Assembly (NCBI RefSeq): GCF_023910635.1
Contig: NZ_JAAVVZ010000005.1
Coordinates: 1 to 64,000 of the forward strand
Origin: Sphingorhabdus sp.
Lineage (GTDB): Bacteria; Pseudomonadota; Alphaproteobacteria; Sphingomonadales; Sphingomonadaceae
Direction: 5' to 3'
Length of the DNA: 64,000 nucleotides
In this document: piece by piece, positions 16,798 through 54,876 of the stretch
Numbering within the stretch: the stretch's first letter is position 1
How the letters are laid out: every line of letters begins with the position of its first letter
The notes under the pieces: model-generated
The model's input: the letters and a program-made list of their open reading frames with translations, nothing else
The model's database searches: none
Told to the model about the DNA's origin: nothing
Translations under genes and position numbers: made by a program

Positions 16798-16799
16798 AG

Positions 16800-17061
16800 G
16801 GTCAGGACCACTTAAATCCACCTTCGCGGCGTCAAAATGGCAAAGATATCGAAGGAAAATGTCCGCCGCAGGCAGTCATTCTGCCTGCAAGGGCATTTTG
16901 CTTTGAGATCGAAGCCATTTTGACGTCCTTCGGATTTGACCCATTTTGTCCATTGTCGCGTTGGCAAGCTTGGACTTAGAACCACTAAGTCCTGCGCTTA
17001 CCGCCTTGCACTGAACAAAATGGCCTCAAACCGCGAAGGTGGATTTAAGTGGTCCTGACCC
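16800..17061. repeat. Inverted-repeat element copy 1 (262 bp) with termini GGGTCAGGACCACTTAAATCCACCTTCGCGG
   Basis: Perfect terminal inverted repeat bounded by TA; internal hairpins GCAGGCAG-TCATT-CTGCCTGC and GGACTTAG-AACCA-CTAAGTCC; no ORF. Confidence 0.92.
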
Positions 17062-44374: not shown

Positions 44375-44464
44375 GGAGAGATGGCTGAGTGGTCGAAAGC
44401 ACCGCACTCGAAATGCGGCGTGCCGGTGACGGTACCTAGGGTTCGAATCCCTATCTCTCCGCCA
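44375..44464 (+). tRNA. tRNA-Ser (anticodon CGA), CCA encoded
   Basis: Acceptor GGAGAGA/TCTCTCC, anticodon loop CTCGAAA, long variable arm, TpsiC GGTTCGAATCC. Confidence 0.96.
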
Positions 44465-44479
44465 ATTTATATTGAAAAA
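44459..44479. repeat. Putative att site (left) overlapping tRNA-Ser 3' end
   Basis: CCGCCAATTTATATTGAAAAA, identical 21-mer at 52033-52053. Confidence 0.7.
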
Positions 44480-44612
44480 AAGAGTTAATTTTTAGATTTT
44501 TAGAGCTGTTCCCGAAAACGCTCCCCGATAGCTGGCGGCTTGGGGGCTATTAACTCAAAGAAGAACGGTCTCATGATCTGCGCCCATTGGGGATTAAGCT
44601 TGTACGACCTTG

Positions 44613-44789
44613 GGGTCAGGACCACTTAAATCCACCTTCGCGGCGTCAAGACGTCTTTCGGATTTGACCCATACTGTCCATTGCCGCGTTGGCAAGCTTG
44701 GACTTAGAACCACTAAGTCCCGCGCTTACCGCCTTGCACTGAACAGTATGGCCTCAAACCGCGAAGGTGGATTTAAGTGGTCCTGACCC
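44613..44789. repeat. Inverted-repeat element copy 3 (177 bp)
   Basis: GGGTCAGGACCACTTAAATCCACCTTCGCGGCGTC...CCGCGAAGGTGGATTTAAGTGGTCCTGACCC. Confidence 0.92.
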
Positions 44790-44924
44790 TAAATATCTGA
44801 CCGTCAAAATCTACAATGAAAATATCGCCAATACTACTCATACCGAACGAAACAAGTTGGTTGGAGGTCACGTCAGGCCTTGCATTTTCCGTTCGCAATT
44901 CGATTGTTTTCAGGGATGATTGGT

Positions 44925-45506
44925 CTACTTCTCAATAATTGGAGATGCTGGAAGCAGAAGCTCAAGTCGCGCTTGAAAGTCTAACTTTGTTAGCGTCTTG
45001 TTAGTTAGGCATTCTAGCAGGAAGCCGCGCACTAGATTGACCAGACTGCTAGCGAGTTCATCAGGCTGCTCATACCCACCGTGGTGCAATGCGAGTGACA
45101 AGTTTTGACATCCTATACGCACCCAATTGTCGAACAGTTCGGCTAAAGCTGGCTTTCGGGCACCGTAGAGGCTTAACTCAAGGTCGATCTTGATTGAGCG
45201 GGCGTCTGAAAGTTCTTCTGCCACCAACCGTGTCAGTAACTTCGAAAGATGCGATCGGGTCAATCGCTGGTCTGTCCGCCAACCTAGCGCTGACATGTAA
45301 TTCTCGGCTGAGCCAAGATGGAACTCAAAAGCTTTCTGGATGAGTACATCGCGAGTCGGGAAATGATAGCTGACGACGCCGTGAGATTGCTTCGCTTCAC
45401 TGCCGACGCGGCGATGCGTGACAGCGTCGACGCCTTCCTTGTCTATAACCGCCAAGGCTCCCTTCAAAATTTGTTGTCGGGTTTTTTCTCCGGCGCTGAT
45501 TTGCAT
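44925..45506 (-). CDS. TetR family transcriptional regulator
   Basis: TRQQILKGALAVIDKEGVDAVTHRRVGSEAKQSHGVVSYHFPTRDVLIQKAF; start trimmed to MQISAGEK since the upstream ORF runs into the operator. Confidence 0.9.
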   Translation of the reverse strand: MQISAGEKTRQQILKGALAVIDKEGVDAVTHRRVGSEAKQSHGVVSYHFPTRDVLIQKAFEFHLGSAENYMSALGWRTDQRLTRSHLSKLLTRLVAEELSDARSIKIDLELSLYGARKPALAELFDNWVRIGCQNLSLALHHGGYEQPDELASSLVNLVRGFLLECLTNKTLTKLDFQARLELLLPASPIIEK

Positions 45507-45558
45507 TGTTGAGGTTCCGATCTTCGAGTCTGTGTTTAAACACCATTCGCAACACATC

Positions 45559-45599
45559 TTGACATATGTCAAAGATTATATAATTTGACATATGTCCAA
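45559..45599. promoter_or_regulatory. Divergent operator: two TTGACATATGTC(A/C)A palindromes
   Basis: TTGACATATGTCAA at 45559 and TTGACATATGTCCAA at 45585, between divergent tetR and 45617 gene. Confidence 0.8.
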
Positions 45600-45616
45600 T
45601 CACATTCCGAATGTAA

Positions 45617-46360
45617 GTGTTAATGATGGCTTGTAAGAATATTTCACCGGCAATCTTTGATCTCGGTTACAAAGCAGTAATTGTCTTCCTGATAACCGGC
45701 GTAATCTCACTCGCCCTTCCACTTGAGGCTCCGGTTCCCACTCAGAGTGCGGCAGAACTATGGTTGAATACCAAAGCCGGGGGCTATCTTTTCGGCTGGC
45801 TCAATCAGGTCATCTTGATGTTTGCCTGTTCTGTGATCCTCTTGGCGGCCGGTCTTTCGATCTATTCATCAGCCCCTCTTCGCGCCGGAGCGGTTTGGGT
45901 GTTTACGTTGATGGCGACCCTTGCGTTCCTGATTTCAAAATTCCTGTCTCTCTGGTCGGTTCCCCTTACCGCAAAAGCGATCGCGGCGGAAAACGCGGTG
46001 GCTGGTTCAGCTCAATCCATCCTTACCACGCTGGGGCCGAGCGAAGCATTTGGCCTCCTGTCATCAATTGATTACCTTGGTTTCTGGCTCTATGGACTTA
46101 TCGGTTTGTTATTGTTCAGGCCGCTTTTTCGTCAGTCGCTCAGTGCTAAAATTGCCGCCGTTGCGTTGCTGTTGTACGGAATCTTGTTTCATCTCGTCTA
46201 TGTCGCTGTCATGATCGACTTGTTGGGTCAGAGTGATGTGCCGGGTGTCGTCTTTCTAAACACACTTTTGGTTCTGATTGCCGCAATCGCGCTTCTGTTC
46301 CGCTTTCGTGGCAGCCGCGTCGATACCATCCAGCCAGCATCAGGCTCGGTTGCGTCATGA
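45617..46360 (+). CDS. Hypothetical multi-TM membrane protein
   Basis: Several hydrophobic helices; divergent from tetR; overlaps next gene start. Confidence 0.8.
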   Translation: MLMMACKNISPAIFDLGYKAVIVFLITGVISLALPLEAPVPTQSAAELWLNTKAGGYLFGWLNQVILMFACSVILLAAGLSIYSSAPLRAGAVWVFTLMATLAFLISKFLSLWSVPLTAKAIAAENAVAGSAQSILTTLGPSEAFGLLSSIDYLGFWLYGLIGLLLFRPLFRQSLSAKIAAVALLLYGILFHLVYVAVMIDLLGQSDVPGVVFLNTLLVLIAAIALLFRFRGSRVDTIQPASGSVAS

Positions 46361-48249
46361 CCATGAGGAACTCGATTAGCCGGCGGGATTTTCTCGACGG
46401 CGCTGCCCTGACCGTCGTCGCAGCAGCGTTGCCGCCACTCGCCTTTGCACAAACCAGCAATCCCCTATCCGCAAACCAACAATCCCCTATCCGGAGTGAC
46501 TACCCTCCAGAACTCACTGGAATGAGAGGAAATCATCCTGGCGCCTTCGATGATGCGCATGCGCTCGCCAGGGATGGAGAATCGCCGACAGCATTTCATG
46601 ACACGGGCGAAGAGTATGATCTGGTCATAGTTGGTGGGGGTATTAGCGGACTAGCGGCAGCCTTGTTCTTCCAGCAAGCCCGCGGAGTTGGCCAACGCAT
46701 TCTGATACTCGACAATCATGACGATTTTGGAGGACACGCAAAACGCAATGAGTTTCATACCGGCGGTAACATGCTGCTTGGTGTCGGCGGCAGCATAAAT
46801 CTGGAGAATCCGAGCAAGTATAGCGATATCGCAAAAGATCTTTTGAGCGAACTTGGGGTAGATTTCAAGCAGCTCAAAAGAGCAAAAGATCCGGATTATT
46901 TCTTAGGCGGCGGCACGCGCAAAACCGGTATGTTCGTTAAATCGCAAACCGGCGAATCTGCGCTCATTGCTGGACGTTGGTTCGGCGCCTTTTTCGGGGA
47001 CGCCGATGCCAAACCGCTTGTCGATCAATTGCCGTATCCTCGCAGTGAGAAAGAGAAGCTTCTCAAATTCCTTGGGGGCAACTGGGATTATCTTGCCGGG
47101 CGGTCAATGTTCGAACGCAGTGAGTATTTGTCATCGACCTCCTACCGAGAGTTCCTGACCAGCAGAGTCGGTCTTTCGCCAGATACTGCTTCGCTTTTCG
47201 ATCCTGCATTGCTGGCCAATTTCAGCGTTGGTGGTGAGGGACTATCCGTAAATGAAGCGATTAACTCCGGCGCGCCCGGTTTGAGTGCTGTTGGTTGGCC
47301 CTGGGCCCTGGCGGAGCGGCTGCTGGTAGATGGGGACAACGTGTTTGAAGCGCTTCTGTTTCCAGATGGAAATGCGTCTGTTGCTCGGCTGATGGTGCGG
47401 CGGCTGATCCCCGGCGTGGCCGAAGGCAACAGCATGGACGATATTGCGGCTGCTCGCTTCGATTATTCCAAGCTTGATACAGACGCCTCGCCAGTCCGCA
47501 TCCGTCTCAACAGCACCGTCGTCAGAGTCCGAGAGGAGGGTGAAACAGTCGCGGTCTCTTACATCCAGAACGGCAAACCCACACGCGTTCGAGCGAAGCA
47601 TTGTGTGTTGGCTTGTTTCAATATGATCATTCCGCATTTATGTCCGGAAATGACGGCTGAGCAGAAGGATGGCCTGAAGTATGGGTCGAAAGCTCCCTTT
47701 ATCTATACCAACGTTTTGCTGCGCGACGGGGCTGCGATACGACGCGCCGCCGCCGAAACAATCCTTTGTCCGCAGGGCTATTATTGCATCGTTACAAAGG
47801 CGCCGCCCGTGACGCTCCCGGATTTTTCTCCGCCTGAGGAACAGACTGATCCTATAGTGCTGTTCATGTTGCGCGCACCTGTCAGGCATAAAATCCCGGA
47901 TACGACCATTCGTGACCATTACAGGGTTGGTCGCTATCAACTTCTGGAGACACCTTTTTCAGAAATCGAGACTGCAACCAAAGCTCAACTCATGGACTTG
48001 TATGGGAGATACGGGTTCGACGCTGAGCGAGATATTGAAGCAATAACGGTGAACCGATGGTCGCATGGTTATGCTTATACCTACAGCGAGCTTGACGATC
48101 CGGATTTTGAGGAGGGCGCTTTTCCGCATGAGATCGGACGCAGGAAATTCGGACGAATCTCAATTGCAAACTCGGACTCCGAAGCTCGAGCCTATCTGGA
48201 TGCCGCAATCGATGCGGCCTGGCGGGCCGTGACAGAGCAACTCGCCTAA
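46357..48249 (+). CDS. Tat-exported FAD/NAD(P)-binding oxidoreductase
   Basis: Twin-arginine SRRDFLDGAALTVVAAALPPLAFA; dinucleotide fold YDLVIVGGGISGLAAALFF. Confidence 0.88.
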   Translation: MTMRNSISRRDFLDGAALTVVAAALPPLAFAQTSNPLSANQQSPIRSDYPPELTGMRGNHPGAFDDAHALARDGESPTAFHDTGEEYDLVIVGGGISGLAAALFFQQARGVGQRILILDNHDDFGGHAKRNEFHTGGNMLLGVGGSINLENPSKYSDIAKDLLSELGVDFKQLKRAKDPDYFLGGGTRKTGMFVKSQTGESALIAGRWFGAFFGDADAKPLVDQLPYPRSEKEKLLKFLGGNWDYLAGRSMFERSEYLSSTSYREFLTSRVGLSPDTASLFDPALLANFSVGGEGLSVNEAINSGAPGLSAVGWPWALAERLLVDGDNVFEALLFPDGNASVARLMVRRLIPGVAEGNSMDDIAAARFDYSKLDTDASPVRIRLNSTVVRVREEGETVAVSYIQNGKPTRVRAKHCVLACFNMIIPHLCPEMTAEQKDGLKYGSKAPFIYTNVLLRDGAAIRRAAAETILCPQGYYCIVTKAPPVTLPDFSPPEEQTDPIVLFMLRAPVRHKIPDTTIRDHYRVGRYQLLETPFSEIETATKAQLMDLYGRYGFDAERDIEAITVNRWSHGYAYTYSELDDPDFEEGAFPHEIGRRKFGRISIANSDSEARAYLDAAIDAAWRAVTEQLA

Positions 48250-48499
48250 ACTGCATGAATACTTTTATGTTCACAGGTCTAACCCTGCTCGATTAGAGGC
48301 CGACGCGCCGCGTAGCCGCCTAGCTTTTTTTGAAGAGCATTGAAATTGTTTATCAAATTCTTAATTCTTAAAAACATCGGGGTCGAATCAACAACTGAAA
48401 GCGCTGTAATCAGGATTGCCGTGGTTCAAAATGGATCGAGACTTCTGTGGGTGCCGTCCGAGATGCAAGAGGGTTTCTGGCGATAGGAGAAGATGAACT

Positions 48500-49981
48500 A
48501 TGAGGGCTTGGGTGCGTGCTTGGTTCGGCGTGGGATTGAGTTTCTGTGTTGCCGGGGCCGCTGTAGCGGAAGATAAGGCTGCACCTCCACAGTCTGCTGT
48601 GGAGTCAGATTGGGCCGCCGCTGCCCGCATGGATATCGAGGCCATCCATGACACCCTGCGCGACAACCATCCCGGCCCCGTAGATGTGGGCAACCCTGCT
48701 TTTGCTGAATGGCTGAAAGAGGGCAAGGCACAGGCGCTGGCGCAGGCCGCCGCCGCGACTCATGCCGGTGACTATTGGCGCGCAGTGCGCAGTTACACCA
48801 ATGGTTTTCGCGATGGGCATATCTGGTTCGGGTTCAGCGAGCCGGTGACGCGCGCGTGGCCGGGCCTGCTTACGATGCGCGACGCCGACGGGCGCACTCG
48901 GGTGGTGCTCAACGACGATGAGCCGAGCGTGCCATTGCAGTCGGAACTGCTGGCCTGCGACGGCAAGGATTCCGAGACCCTGCAGCGGCAGTGGGTAGAC
49001 CCCTATCGTTGGAACGCCGACATTCCCCACGAGCGCAACGCGGCGTCCGTCTTTTTGATGACCGCCTTTGTGGGCGATCCACGTAAGCCTCTAGCCTGTC
49101 GCTTCCGCGTTGACGGCGCGGAGGTCGAACGGACCTTGCGTTGGTCTTCGGTATCCGAAGATCGGCTTTCCAGCCTGATCGATCGGGCCTCGGGCGGGGG
49201 CGGAGAGTCGATCAAATTGCGCCAAGTAGATGGGGTCTGGTTTGTGTCGTTGCCAACCTTCGACCTGCAGCAGTCCGAACAGGTCGATGCCATGCGGGCA
49301 CTGATCCGCGAACTTGGCGAACAAGCCGAGGCATTGCGCAAAGCGCCCTGGGTGGTGTTGGATGTCCGGGGCAATGATGGCGGTAACAGCGGTTGGGGCA
49401 GTGAGGTTGCGGCGTCGCTATTTGGAAAGCAGACCATCGACCGGATTGAGGGCCAGTTCGATTGGACGGTCGACTGGCGTGCATCGTCACTCAACGCTGT
49501 ATCGCTCCGTCAGGCGGCGGAGGAAGCAGAGAAGGCCGGCCAGACTGCCGACGCGTTGTATCGCCGTGAATTGGCTGATGAGATCGAGACGGCGGCCGCA
49601 GCGGGAAAGGCTTATGTCCACAAGTCCAGCCCTGCTCAATCAGAGGCCAACACGCCGACAGAATCGTCTCCGTTCAAGGGTCGCGTCTTGCTGCTGACAG
49701 ACCATAACTGCGCGAGCGCTTGCCTGGACTTCGCCGACATCGCTCGGCGCCTGCCCGGCGTGGTGCATGTAGGGCTGCCTACTTCGGCCGATTCAATCTA
49801 CATTGATAACACGGGAATAGCGCTCCCAAGCGGGCACGGTTCACTGAGTTGGTCGATGAAGGTTTATCGGAACCGGATACGATCCAACAACCAATGGTAC
49901 GAACCCGCGATCCGTTGGCCGGGCGGTCCGATGACCGATGCGGCGGTGGCTAATTGGGTGCGTGGACTAACGTTCAATTAG
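48500..49981 (+). CDS. S41 family peptidase (C-terminal processing peptidase-like)
   Basis: WVVLDVRGNDGGNSGWG; GRVLLLTDHNCASACLDFADI; signal peptide; stop TAG overlaps repeat footprint. Confidence 0.88.
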   Translation: MRAWVRAWFGVGLSFCVAGAAVAEDKAAPPQSAVESDWAAAARMDIEAIHDTLRDNHPGPVDVGNPAFAEWLKEGKAQALAQAAAATHAGDYWRAVRSYTNGFRDGHIWFGFSEPVTRAWPGLLTMRDADGRTRVVLNDDEPSVPLQSELLACDGKDSETLQRQWVDPYRWNADIPHERNAASVFLMTAFVGDPRKPLACRFRVDGAEVERTLRWSSVSEDRLSSLIDRASGGGGESIKLRQVDGVWFVSLPTFDLQQSEQVDAMRALIRELGEQAEALRKAPWVVLDVRGNDGGNSGWGSEVAASLFGKQTIDRIEGQFDWTVDWRASSLNAVSLRQAAEEAEKAGQTADALYRRELADEIETAAAAGKAYVHKSSPAQSEANTPTESSPFKGRVLLLTDHNCASACLDFADIARRLPGVVHVGLPTSADSIYIDNTGIALPSGHGSLSWSMKVYRNRIRSNNQWYEPAIRWPGGPMTDAAVANWVRGLTFN

Positions 49982-49992
49982 GGTCAGGACCC
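49981..49992. repeat. 12-bp footprint of the inverted-repeat element (GGGTCAGGACCC flanked by TTA/TAA)
   Basis: TTAGGGTCAGGACCCTAA = both element termini fused. Confidence 0.65.
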
Positions 49993-49995
49993 TAA

Positions 49996-50142
49996 ACGCA
50001 AAAGAGGTGGCAATATATATCGCCATTCGCTAGCAGCAACGGCATATATTCTTCGGGAATCACCTATGCGTAAACTGGTATCACTTCTTGCTTTGTCATT
50101 GGCACTTTCTGCTTGTGGCAGCTCGCAACTTGGCGGGGTGGG
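49996..50142 (+). pseudogene. Truncated duplicate of EPS export gene leader and first ~25 codons (MRKLVSLLALSLALSACGSSQLGGVG)
   Basis: 147-bp ungapped match to 54084-54230 with 6 mismatches by eye. Confidence 0.92.
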
Positions 50143-50560
50143 CTTCGTCGATCGGTAGGTGAAGTTGATCGCCCCGTGGCGCCGCCTTCCACATCAGTCG
50201 GAACAACTCCTGATTGATGATGGCAAAACGCACATAGGCAGCACCGCTTGCGGAAAATGCTGCCAGCGCACCTTGCCCCGATGCGGAGCGCGAGGCTGCC
50301 TGCTGTGCTGCCGCCAGCTGGTCAAAACCGGTCATCGCGAGAGCGACCAGCAATGCATCCTTATCCGGGAAGTGGCGGTATACGGCGGTCGCGCTTACCC
50401 CCACTTCCCGCGCCAGCGCCCGTAGCGACAGTGCGTCGGCGCTGTCCGCTGACAGCGCATGCATACCAGCTGCGATCAGCGCACTGCGCAAATCGCCGTG
50501 GTGATAGGCATCACGGCCAAGTGCTGGCGCTATGTTGACACTGGTATCATTCTTTGCCAT
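50096..50560 (-). pseudogene. TetR family regulator with C-terminus truncated/chimeric at the duplication junction
   Basis: HTH DALSLRALAREVGVSATAVYRHFPDKDALLVAL; native sequence ends at LPIDEA, then HPAKLRAATSRKCQ is antisense of the EPS fragment. Confidence 0.8.
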
Positions 50561-50612
50561 GTTGATGACGTTAACATCATTTGCGCGAGTCGCAAGCGGA
50601 GGGTGTCGAATT

Positions 50613-51065
50613 ATGGGCGAAGCAATCGCGGTTGCGCCGGAAGCAATGTTCGGATGGGCTGGACAAGCAGCAATGATCGGCTGGGGCATCCTGATTTTTC
50701 TGCCGAGACGCTGGCCACAGATCTTGTTTATTCCGCGTTATCTAATCCCTTTCGGACTCAGCCTGCTTTATGCCGGACTTGCATTTTCGCACTTCTTTAC
50801 AATCGAAGGGGGAGGCTACAACTCGCTAGATCAGGTCAGAATTCTGCTCTCAAAAGAAGAGATGTTGTTGGCTGGCTGGGTGCATTACCTGGCGTTTGAT
50901 CTCTTTATTGGCGGTTGGATCGCGGTTGAAGCGGATAAAGTTGGCCTAAATAGAGTGTTCCAGGCGCCAATCCTGATCGCGACGTTCATGTTCGGACCGG
51001 TGGGGCTGGCGTTGTTCTTGGCAATGCGTGCAGGCCATTTTCGCAAGCGGGAGGCAAGCGCATGA
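50613..51065 (+). CDS. ABA4-like (DUF4281) membrane protein
   Basis: MLLAGWVHYLAFDLFIGGWIAVEAD...FMFGPVGLALFLAMR pattern. Confidence 0.75.
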   Translation: MGEAIAVAPEAMFGWAGQAAMIGWGILIFLPRRWPQILFIPRYLIPFGLSLLYAGLAFSHFFTIEGGGYNSLDQVRILLSKEEMLLAGWVHYLAFDLFIGGWIAVEADKVGLNRVFQAPILIATFMFGPVGLALFLAMRAGHFRKREASA

Positions 51066-51886
51066 GCGAGAAAAACACAGCTTATCGAAAGCCGCTTATC
51101 CCTCAGTTGGATGGCGACCATGTGACGCGTCTGCTGCTTGTTTCCTGCTTGTTTATGCTGGCGAACTTCGTCGTATTTCTCCCTGCGTGGTTCCTTGATC
51201 CGCGCGTTTTGGATGGCGCCTCTGTTTGGACCAAGCCACAGAAGTTCACCGTTTCACTTGCACTGCATTTCGCGACGCTTGCAGTCCTTGCACAGCAATT
51301 GCCACGGGAGGTCCGAAGCGGTCCAGTGTTGATCGGTTTTTCCTATGCTGCCGCAGTCTCACTGGTTTTCGAATGGGGTTACGTCAGCTTGCAAGCCGCG
51401 CGCGCAAGGCGATCGCATTACAATTATGATGGTCAGTTCGAAGCGTTAATGTTTGCATTGATGGGGCTAGGCGCGTTCTTGCTGATCGCAGTTGCTATGG
51501 CGCTTGCGGTGCAGATTTATCGCAAGGGCGACAAGTCGATGGCCGGTCTACGTTGGGGCTCGATATTGGGACTGACGCTTGGTTTCATCTCCACGTTGAT
51601 CTTCGCCGGCTACATGTCGTCGTATGGGCGCTATGTGGGTGGCGACCTGGACCATGTCGGGATGGTGGTTCCGTTTTTTGGCTGGTCTCGCGAGATCGGA
51701 GATTTACGTCCAGCTCACTTTGTTTCACTCCACTTGATGCAAACGCTGCCGCTTGCTGGATATATCGCTGACCGTAAAAGATGGCCGGGCGTGAAGCTGG
51801 TCGTTGGCGTTGCTATTGTTCAGCTGACGTTCGCAACCTTCCTCTTTCTACAAGCACTCTCAGGCAAGCCGTTTTGGCCTATCTAG
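51062..51886 (+). CDS. Hypothetical multi-TM membrane protein
   Basis: ATGA overlap with upstream gene; ~7 hydrophobic helices; VWTKPQKFTVSLALHF. Confidence 0.8.
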   Translation: MSEKNTAYRKPLIPQLDGDHVTRLLLVSCLFMLANFVVFLPAWFLDPRVLDGASVWTKPQKFTVSLALHFATLAVLAQQLPREVRSGPVLIGFSYAAAVSLVFEWGYVSLQAARARRSHYNYDGQFEALMFALMGLGAFLLIAVAMALAVQIYRKGDKSMAGLRWGSILGLTLGFISTLIFAGYMSSYGRYVGGDLDHVGMVVPFFGWSREIGDLRPAHFVSLHLMQTLPLAGYIADRKRWPGVKLVVGVAIVQLTFATFLFLQALSGKPFWPI

Positions 51887-52032
51887 ATGTTTGATCCCTG
51901 CATTTGATGGTGGACCCCTTCGCTACAAATGGTGCCCATGTTAAGCAGCGTTGGTCCTAAAGGGCCTGAAAAATCAGACGTTTAATATCAATAAGATAAT
52001 AGAAAGAGAGTTGGTTGGGAGATGCTCTCGCA

Positions 52033-52053
52033 CCGCCAATTTATATTGAAAAA
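52033..52053. repeat. Putative att site (right)
   Basis: CCGCCAATTTATATTGAAAAA identical to tRNA-Ser 3' junction. Confidence 0.65.
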
Positions 52054-52341
52054 TAACAAGACTTCTTTTAAATCGTATTCCGTTCCATCAGAGATTCCCT
52101 GATGCGGCGTTTGCTTTAGGCTAGATCGTTTTATCTATTTTGTTGTGTGCCAGCTTCCTCCGTTACGTCGGCTTTAACACTGCAGGCGGATCCTGAACCC
52201 TAAGTACTGCCCGATAGTTTAGCGAGCGGCTCTCCTTTGGGTCATGGGCGCATTGGGCAAGCAAGTGTAGAGGATTGTCACCTTGATATTGACCTGACTT
52301 CGTGGGGCGGGCAACAGGCTCCTCATTCGAGGGGGAAGCGC

Positions 52342-54015
52342 ATGAAGAGATTTGGGCCGGTTTTAGGGACGCTGGTTGTAGCAGTCCTGTTGGCGCTTTT
52401 TGCGACGACGCCGCCAAAAGCAATGCCGGGTAATGCCCCAGCTCCAAGCTTCTCCGCAATCCGCGCAATGACGGATGTGAGGACAATTGCGAAACACCCG
52501 CACGTCACCGGCTCGGCCGAGAATGCAGTCGTGCGCGATCACATTATGCGCCGCATGGAAGCTCTCGGGATGGAGGTGTCGACCAGCACGGGCCTAATCG
52601 ACGCCAAGGGGACAAAGCGGCTCAATCACTGGAGCGGACGCAACGATCCACCGGCCACATTGGTCAATTTGATCGGCATTCTGCCCGGAAAAAATCGCAA
52701 CGCGCCGTCAGTTGTTCTGATGTCGCACCACGATACGGTTTGGGGCTCGCCCGGCGCCGCCGACGACACAGCGGGCGTTGCTGCAAGCCTGGAAGTCGTG
52801 CGCGCAATCCGCGCCCGTGGGCAGCAGGAACGCGATCTGGTCATGCTGGTCACCGATGGCGAAGAACTGGGCCTGCAGGGTGCACGCCAATTTTGGGCTG
52901 AACATCCTTTGCGCAAAAGCGTTGGCGCAGTAATCAATATGGAAGCGCGCGGCGGCGGCGGACGCACCACCCTGTTCCAGACCTCGCACCAGAACGGTGC
53001 AGCAATGCACGTCTATGCCGATGCGGTCCGTCGCCCTGGCGCATCTTCACTTGCAGCCTTCATTTACGCAGTCCTGCCCAATGACTCCGATCTGACACCC
53101 GTCATCAAGCATGATTACGCTGCCTATAACTTTGCCTTCATTGGGCGATCCGGCCTCTACCACTCACCATTGGCGACGCCGGACAACCTTGATCAAGGGT
53201 CATTACAGGATATGGGTGGGCAGGTCCTTGACCTCAGCCGCGCGCTCCTTGAGGCAGAAGGACTTCCCCAAAGGGCGGCTAATGTCGTGTTCTTTGACCT
53301 ATTCGGGATATTCACCGTGATCTATCCTGTTTGGCTGGGCTGGGTCATGATGATCACAGCAGCAGGCGGACTGTTTGTGGTCGTGCGGCGAGACGGAACA
53401 GACGGTCTGATGGCCGGTGCCGGACATATGCTAGCGCTGATCTTGGGAAGCGCAGCGATACTCTTCGCGCTCAACCGCTTATCCATCGGGCTTGCGCCAG
53501 CAAATTATTACGACCGCTTGGCCGCGATCCCCCGGCTAGAGGTTATGGCCGCATTGGGCGCGCTGGCGGCGTTTCTCGCACTGTTTGCAACCTGGCGGCC
53601 AAGCCGCGCCGGTGTCGTAGGTGCGGCGCTGCCTCTGTTCGTCATCGGCCTTGCCGCGCAAGCACTGGCGCCCACGGCTGCCTATTTTGTGGTTCTACCG
53701 CTAGTGGTCACCACCTTTGCACTGTTGGCGCGCTATGCTGCTGTGCAGATTGGCAATGCGGCACTGGTTGGTGGCTATATGTTGTCGCTGGGTCATCAGT
53801 TGATGCAAGGGGTGGGGCCGACGCTTTCCTTTGCCGTCGCACTGCCGCTGGCATTAGCGGTTTTATCGACACTGCCGCTGTGGCCCGGCATGGAGGCTCG
53901 AAAGGCGCGTGCGATCGCCGTTGCTGCCTTGCTGGGGGCTGCGTCCGTGTCACTTTGGGTCCTACTTGATGCTCCCGCAGCAAGCCGGGCTGTTTATTCC
54001 GATACCAAGCAGTAA
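52342..54015 (+). CDS. M28 family metallopeptidase with C-terminal membrane domain
   Basis: VVLMSHHDTVWGSPGAADDTAGVAASLEVVRAI; VTDGEELGLQGARQF; NMEARGGGG; ~8 C-terminal TM helices. Confidence 0.9.
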   Translation: MKRFGPVLGTLVVAVLLALFATTPPKAMPGNAPAPSFSAIRAMTDVRTIAKHPHVTGSAENAVVRDHIMRRMEALGMEVSTSTGLIDAKGTKRLNHWSGRNDPPATLVNLIGILPGKNRNAPSVVLMSHHDTVWGSPGAADDTAGVAASLEVVRAIRARGQQERDLVMLVTDGEELGLQGARQFWAEHPLRKSVGAVINMEARGGGGRTTLFQTSHQNGAAMHVYADAVRRPGASSLAAFIYAVLPNDSDLTPVIKHDYAAYNFAFIGRSGLYHSPLATPDNLDQGSLQDMGGQVLDLSRALLEAEGLPQRAANVVFFDLFGIFTVIYPVWLGWVMMITAAGGLFVVVRRDGTDGLMAGAGHMLALILGSAAILFALNRLSIGLAPANYYDRLAAIPRLEVMAALGALAAFLALFATWRPSRAGVVGAALPLFVIGLAAQALAPTAAYFVVLPLVVTTFALLARYAAVQIGNAALVGGYMLSLGHQLMQGVGPTLSFAVALPLALAVLSTLPLWPGMEARKARAIAVAALLGAASVSLWVLLDAPAASRAVYSDTKQ

Positions 54016-54153
54016 AAGCCCGTTTACGGATGGCGCATAAGCGCTGATACTGAACGAAGCAGACTATATTACTGTTCAATTACACGCAAAAGAGGTGGCA
54101 ATATATATCGCCATTCGCTAGCAGCAACGGCACATATTCTTCGGGAATCACAT

Positions 54154-54876
54154 ATGCGTAAACTGTTGGCACTTCTTGCTTTGTCATTGGCACTTTCTGC
54201 TTGCGGCAGCTCGCAACTTGGCGGGGTGGGGAGTATGTCCGATATCAAGGTCGTTGACAGTGACGTACTGCCCGAACCGACCCGGATTGATTTATTTGAA
54301 CAAAACAGACCCTATCTCATCGGTCCCTTTGATAAATTGACCATTGATGTCTTCGGCATTGAAGAGTTGAGCAAGCAGGAAGTTCAAACCGATGCCGGTG
54401 GGCGGATATCTTTCCCGCTGGCGGGTATTATAGAGGCCGCTGGAAAAACGCCCGGTGAGCTGGAAGAGGAAATCGAGGGCCGCCTGCGTGGCCAATATGT
54501 CCGCGATCCCCAGGTTACCGTGAATCTGAAAGAAACGGTCAGCCAAGTAATCACCATCGACGGTCAGGTGCGTGAACCAGGATTATATCCTGTCATTGGC
54601 AAAATGACGCTGATGCGCGCTGTGGCGGTGGCAAAGGGCACTTCGGAATTTGCCAAGCTGAACGATGTCGTCATTTTCCGAACGGTAAATGGGCAAAAGA
54701 TGGCGGCGCTTTATAACCTGAAATCGATCCGCCGTGGCGTTTACAATGACCCAGAAGTGTTCGCCAATGATGTTGTCGTTGTCGGTGATTCACAGGCGCG
54801 CAGGTTGTTCAAGGATGCGCTGCAGGTCACGCCTGCTCTTTTAACGCCGCTGATCTATATCTTGCAGACCAATTAA
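54154..54876 (+). CDS. Polysaccharide export protein (Wza/GumB-like lipoprotein)
   Basis: Lipobox LSACG; GPFDKLTIDVFGIEELSKQEVQTDAGGRISFPLAGIIEAAGKTPGELEEEIEGRL; SLBB-like VDGQVREPGLYPVIGKMTL region. Confidence 0.93.
   Translation: MRKLLALLALSLALSACGSSQLGGVGSMSDIKVVDSDVLPEPTRIDLFEQNRPYLIGPFDKLTIDVFGIEELSKQEVQTDAGGRISFPLAGIIEAAGKTPGELEEEIEGRLRGQYVRDPQVTVNLKETVSQVITIDGQVREPGLYPVIGKMTLMRAVAVAKGTSEFAKLNDVVIFRTVNGQKMAALYNLKSIRRGVYNDPEVFANDVVVVGDSQARRLFKDALQVTPALLTPLIYILQTN

Follow-up and report, generated by a model that had tools for sequence, protein, structure and literature searches.

How did a second copy of the start of an EPS export gene come to lie some 4.1 kb upstream of the gene itself? 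Within the window, that is, the whole 64,000-nucleotide stretch of DNA analysed here, a direct-repeat search returned a 150-bp repeat at 49993-50142 and 54081-54230 (spacing 4088 bp, 95% identity). Positions 49996-50142 and 54084-54230 align without gaps and with 6 mismatches over 147 bp, which bears out the duplication described in the original prediction. The scatter of the mismatches speaks against a trivial duplication made during assembly. Used as a query against the whole genome, it matched these two places and no third (E 2e-90 and 3e-64), which excludes chance; a genome-wide repeat family was rejected on the same search.

The right copy (54084..54230, + strand) is the 5' end of an intact resident gene (54154..54876, +; wza hereafter) encoding a Wza/GumB-like EPS export lipoprotein of 240 aa (Pfam PF02563 and SLBB), whose nearest orthologues are found in Sphingorhabdus and related Sphingomonadaceae. 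The repeat holds the leader, the ATG and the lipoprotein signal with its lipobox MRKLVSLLALSLALSACGSSQLGGVG, and its earlier assignment to the leader and signal region of such a gene was correct. The right-copy gene has the Poly_export and SLBB domains as well as the lipobox, whereas the left copy (49996..50142, +) retains the signal and lipobox only. It stops after approximately 27 wza codons, and its open reading frame of 30 codons closes at a TAG beyond the junction.

The surroundings of the left copy suggest that it lies within foreign DNA. A tRNA-Ser(CGA) gene (44375..44464, +; ARAGORN, Rfam RF00005) was the only convincing Rfam hit over the region, and the distance from it to wza is 9.6 kb in the window. 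In two relatives (G004 and G006) the wza-like gene starts 88 bp after the same tRNA, which makes these empty sites. The sequence CCGCCAATTTATATTGAAAAA occurs at 44459..44479 and again, as an exact 21-bp match, at 52033..52053 (both +), and is made up of the terminal CCGCCA of the tRNA (6 bases) and 15 bp of flank. As such, 44465..52038, approximately 7.57 kb absent from the two empty sites, is likely to be one inserted segment, free of an integrase and bounded by this att-like repeat. Its cargo comprises genes for a TetR regulator, a membrane protein, an FAD oxidoreductase and an S41 peptidase together with the wza fragment, and further a truncated tetR, an ABA4-like membrane protein (50613..51065, +; Pfam PF14108, E 1e-27) and a membrane protein of 274 aa with no Pfam family (51062..51886, +). 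PADLOC found no defence genes among the five proteins scanned. No tblastn match in the window was obtained to either relative's integrase, and three integrases of the relatives' island type lie elsewhere in the genome.

Other relatives point to the gap between tRNA and wza as an integration hotspot, since integrase islands occur there, several with clean att repeats. The island in the gap of G013 measures 16 kb and includes a P4-type tyrosine integrase as well as an att copy, with wza farther downstream. In G012 an integrase directly follows the tRNA on one contig, and on a second contig an att copy precedes wza by 2.9 kb. Similarly, a 1.3-kb insert in G011 ends in an att copy immediately before wza, a position that an att copy also occupies in S. 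contaminans. In G044, which has no wza match, the same tRNA carries an island whose integrase is 94% identical; to the right of the att copy of this island, the sequence corresponds to what follows the tRNA in G016. Relatives in which the tRNA adjoins wza carry neither the segment nor the duplicate, and a second wza 5' end was absent from all 18 relatives' loci checked, although many assemblies are drafts and close strains of the organism itself may be missing from the collections. The repeat was rejected as an att site, being duplicated in no relative checked, and the att repeats of relatives correspond to the tRNA 3' end.

This arrangement bears on the proposal that a TetR/ABA4/M28 segment entered the chromosome upstream of the EPS gene with the 147-bp repeats as its borders, either as a duplicated target or through homologous integration of a circle. 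The repeats do flank such a segment at a spacing of 4088 bp, and a circle with part of the wza 5' end could have integrated in this manner. However, the att-like repeat splits the segment at 52033, tetR is truncated at the border, and the M28 peptidase gene (52342..54015, +; Pfam PF04389) stands, in G014 and G024, immediately downstream of this tRNA-Ser without the other genes of the segment. M28 is for this reason probably not part of the insert, and the border proposal is improbable. The expectation of a recombination scar beside inserted DNA stood, but the 147-bp copies are not supported as insertion borders: the 21-bp repeat bounds the insert better, the left copy falls inside 44465-52038, and M28 lies beyond the right end of the insert. 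Target-site duplications of transposons are typically shorter than 147 bp; a transposon origin of the repeat was rejected on its length, and no transposase was seen in the 4.1-kb segment.

The genus-wide search returned no match to wza from G014 or G024. Depending on the relative, the M28 gene is found close to a tRNA gene for Ser, Thr or Lys (loci L077, L078, L198, L199, L202 and L203), and from its placement elsewhere in other relatives may itself be mobile cargo. The stretch 52039-54083 could represent a second tandem insertion.

The left copy is broken off at short shared sequences on both sides. On the left, an S41-family peptidase gene (48500..49981, +; Pfam PF03572) shows homology up to residue 490 of 493, and its last codons (G TTC AAT TA) form the junction. 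The 9 bp GTTCAATTA (49972..49980, +), at the left edge of a footprint-like sequence, are found again directly before the right copy, and this extra match extends the stretch common to both copies to approximately 157-160 bp, interrupted by the footprint. Among random 43-bp pairs, 1.5% contain an equally good match somewhere; given the anchoring of this one at the repeat edge, chance is much less likely. The footprint itself, TTAGGGTCAGGACCCTAA (49978..49995, no strand assigned), resembles paired ends of a hairpin element and occurs as an 18-mer in 11 genomes of the genus. The left copy begins directly after it, as had been claimed.

On the right, the abrupt end predicted at 50142 was also found, with wza and tetR both broken off at that point. 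The truncated tetR (50096..50560, - strand; Pfam TetR_N only) keeps its HTH, has lost the C-terminal domain, and reads its final residues from the antisense strand of the wza fragment. A 94%-identical homologue in G225 keeps its full-length reading frame open (212 aa), and the DNA match to it extends down to 50131, which is 12 bp into the repeat. Over these bases (50131..50142, +) wza TGGCGGGGTGGG and the G225 tetR sequence TGGCAGGATGGG agree at 10 of 12 positions. In G225 the start of tetR is found on two contig ends (G225:C27:1-447 and C30:1-171) and may be repeated there too.

With microhomology at both ends, 9 bp on the left and 10 of 12 on the right, the explanation that we favour overall, at about even confidence, is a patch of wza joined at microhomologies within foreign DNA at tRNA-Ser(CGA). 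Foreign DNA would have entered at the 3' end of the tRNA, between it and the EPS gene. One short patch of approximately 157 bp would then have been copied from the wza 5' end, with the intact right copy, 4088 bp away in the same genome, as donor. Joined through short stretches in common, of 9 bp at the S41 stop codon and approximately 12 bp inside tetR, it would have taken the place of the DNA between S41 and tetR and of the tetR 3' end, and a hairpin element, now seen as the footprint, would have landed at the left edge afterwards. The repeat, the empty sites, the att-like repeat, the common point at which wza and tetR are cut and the bases shared at both junctions are observed; that one templated or illegitimate recombination event made the patch, and the order of steps, we infer. 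Against this explanation, the left match of 9 bp is short, the comparison with G225 leaves the right match imperfect, and the att-like repeat has only the last 6 tRNA bases. Sequence of the unpatched parental type is available for the tetR side in G225 and for the S41 side in distant homologues only; no genome with S41 joined to an intact tetR is known, and the replaced stretch was not seen.

The main rival is a full second wza, acquired by tandem duplication or by single-crossover integration of a donor and then trimmed by deletions, the last of which would have joined wza +147 to the middle of tetR. Such a deletion predicts what is found on the right, where wza and tetR are cut at the same point with 10 of 12 bases shared, and wza adjoins a recombination hotspot. 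However, the left edge is also abrupt after just 9 matching bases, so that two trimming events are needed, and two wza 5' ends occur in no relative checked. A trimmed full copy is therefore possible but rather unlikely, and a single patch bounded by microhomology is preferred because it explains both edges. A chimera, in which the sequences of two strains were joined during assembly, is hardly credible. One contig in the assembly of G021, the nearest relative, begins at base 11 of the repeat, as might be expected if the region were hard to assemble or variable, but the junction shares 12 imperfect bases, too few for an overlap join, the copies differ at 6 scattered sites, and the contig is 191 kb long.

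The duplication is probably younger than the split from G021, whose wza region is 95% identical. Both copies share bases at alignment columns 32, 90 and 108 that differ from those of G021 and three outgroups, and on these three sites the copies seem more closely related to one another than to any of those sequences. The six differences between them indicate that the duplication is not brand new.

In short-patch double illegitimate recombination, a short intragenomic patch is copied in with microhomology at both ends. MMBIR template switching (PMC2621351) likewise gives a short copied intragenomic patch with microhomology at both ends. The present case differs from both in that the patch is approximately 157 bp and the process would be read from its product only. 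Homology-facilitated illegitimate recombination (HFIR; PMC3240628) also joins foreign DNA to the chromosome through an illegitimate junction; unlike HFIR, both patch junctions here look illegitimate and a long-homology anchor is not evident. The insert as a whole resembles tRNA-gene islands by the Islander criteria (PMC4383910), with insertion at an intact tRNA 3' end, a possible displaced fragment at the far end, empty sites in relatives, and relatives that use the same site with tyrosine integrases. Islander requires an integrase for such islands, whereas the insert here has none inside, and its candidate displaced fragment consists of 6 tRNA bases and 15 bp of flank.

The left wza fragment most likely has no function. 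The leader blocks AAAA..GGTGGC and TTCGCTAGCA are both intact in it and point at the ABA4-like and 274-aa genes, and the 30-codon frame retains an intact lipoprotein signal. Retention of the patch as something useful, either as a captured EPS promoter driving foreign genes or as a frame making a tiny lipopeptide, would nevertheless be very unlikely. The duplicate is a scar of local recombination, for the most part an instance of ordinary genome plasticity, and its effect on the cell is probably small since the EPS gene itself stays intact. Homologous recombination across the repeat could remove 4088 bp, M28 included, and no such deletion product was seen. The locus documents that tRNA-Ser(CGA) beside an EPS export gene is a variable site of insertion in Sphingorhabdus-like bacteria. 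It also provides a clear natural case in which a short fragment of a gene start has been joined into foreign DNA at microhomologies.

A search for sigma-70-like promoters in 49900-54300 found none. In the wza leader (54084-54153) and those of relatives (L079-L123), two blocks (TGG and CTAGC) are conserved and their spacing is nearly fixed, a pattern that likely marks an unusual promoter.

The right end of the insert is a 34-bp block, AGAGAGTTGGTTGGGAGATGCTCTCGCACCGCCA (52005..52038, +), which is also present at five other places in four genomes (G001, G012 with two copies, G014 and G039), with the CCGCCA end in every one. The flank beyond the block varies between places, except that the G012:C2 and G014 copies represent the same site. 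Most of the block, together with its left flank, is matched over 52 bp at 94% on the Novosphingobium plasmid pTHN (266785-266836), without the CCGCCA end. A plasmid as the source of the insert was rejected, as only small patches match. The 34-52 bp block has GAGAG...CTCTC arms (sites G001:C203, G012:C2, G012:C6, G014:C8, G039:C2 and pTHN), and a tyrosine integrase lies approximately 0.7 kb from it at G012:C2. Rfam returned nothing at the G012 copy. The block would be either the end of a mobile element or an attachment site.

The window also contains two full-length hairpin elements, at 44613-44789 (177 bp) and 16799-17061 (263 bp), which share the same terminal inverted repeats (GGGTCAGGACCACTTAAATCCACCTTCGCGG...) and appear MITE- or REPIN-like; one of them folds at z -14. 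Many partial matches to these elements are found in G021. The 18-mer pattern TTAGGGTC(AG/CT/CG)GACCCTAA resembles the two outer ends of the hairpin element joined together. It occurs at unrelated sites across 11 genomes of the genus, with a count of 0 for the reversed-pattern control; the places include 49978-49995 of the window and positions 1501-1518 of loci L045-L054, and these 18-mers are possible excision footprints of the hairpin element.
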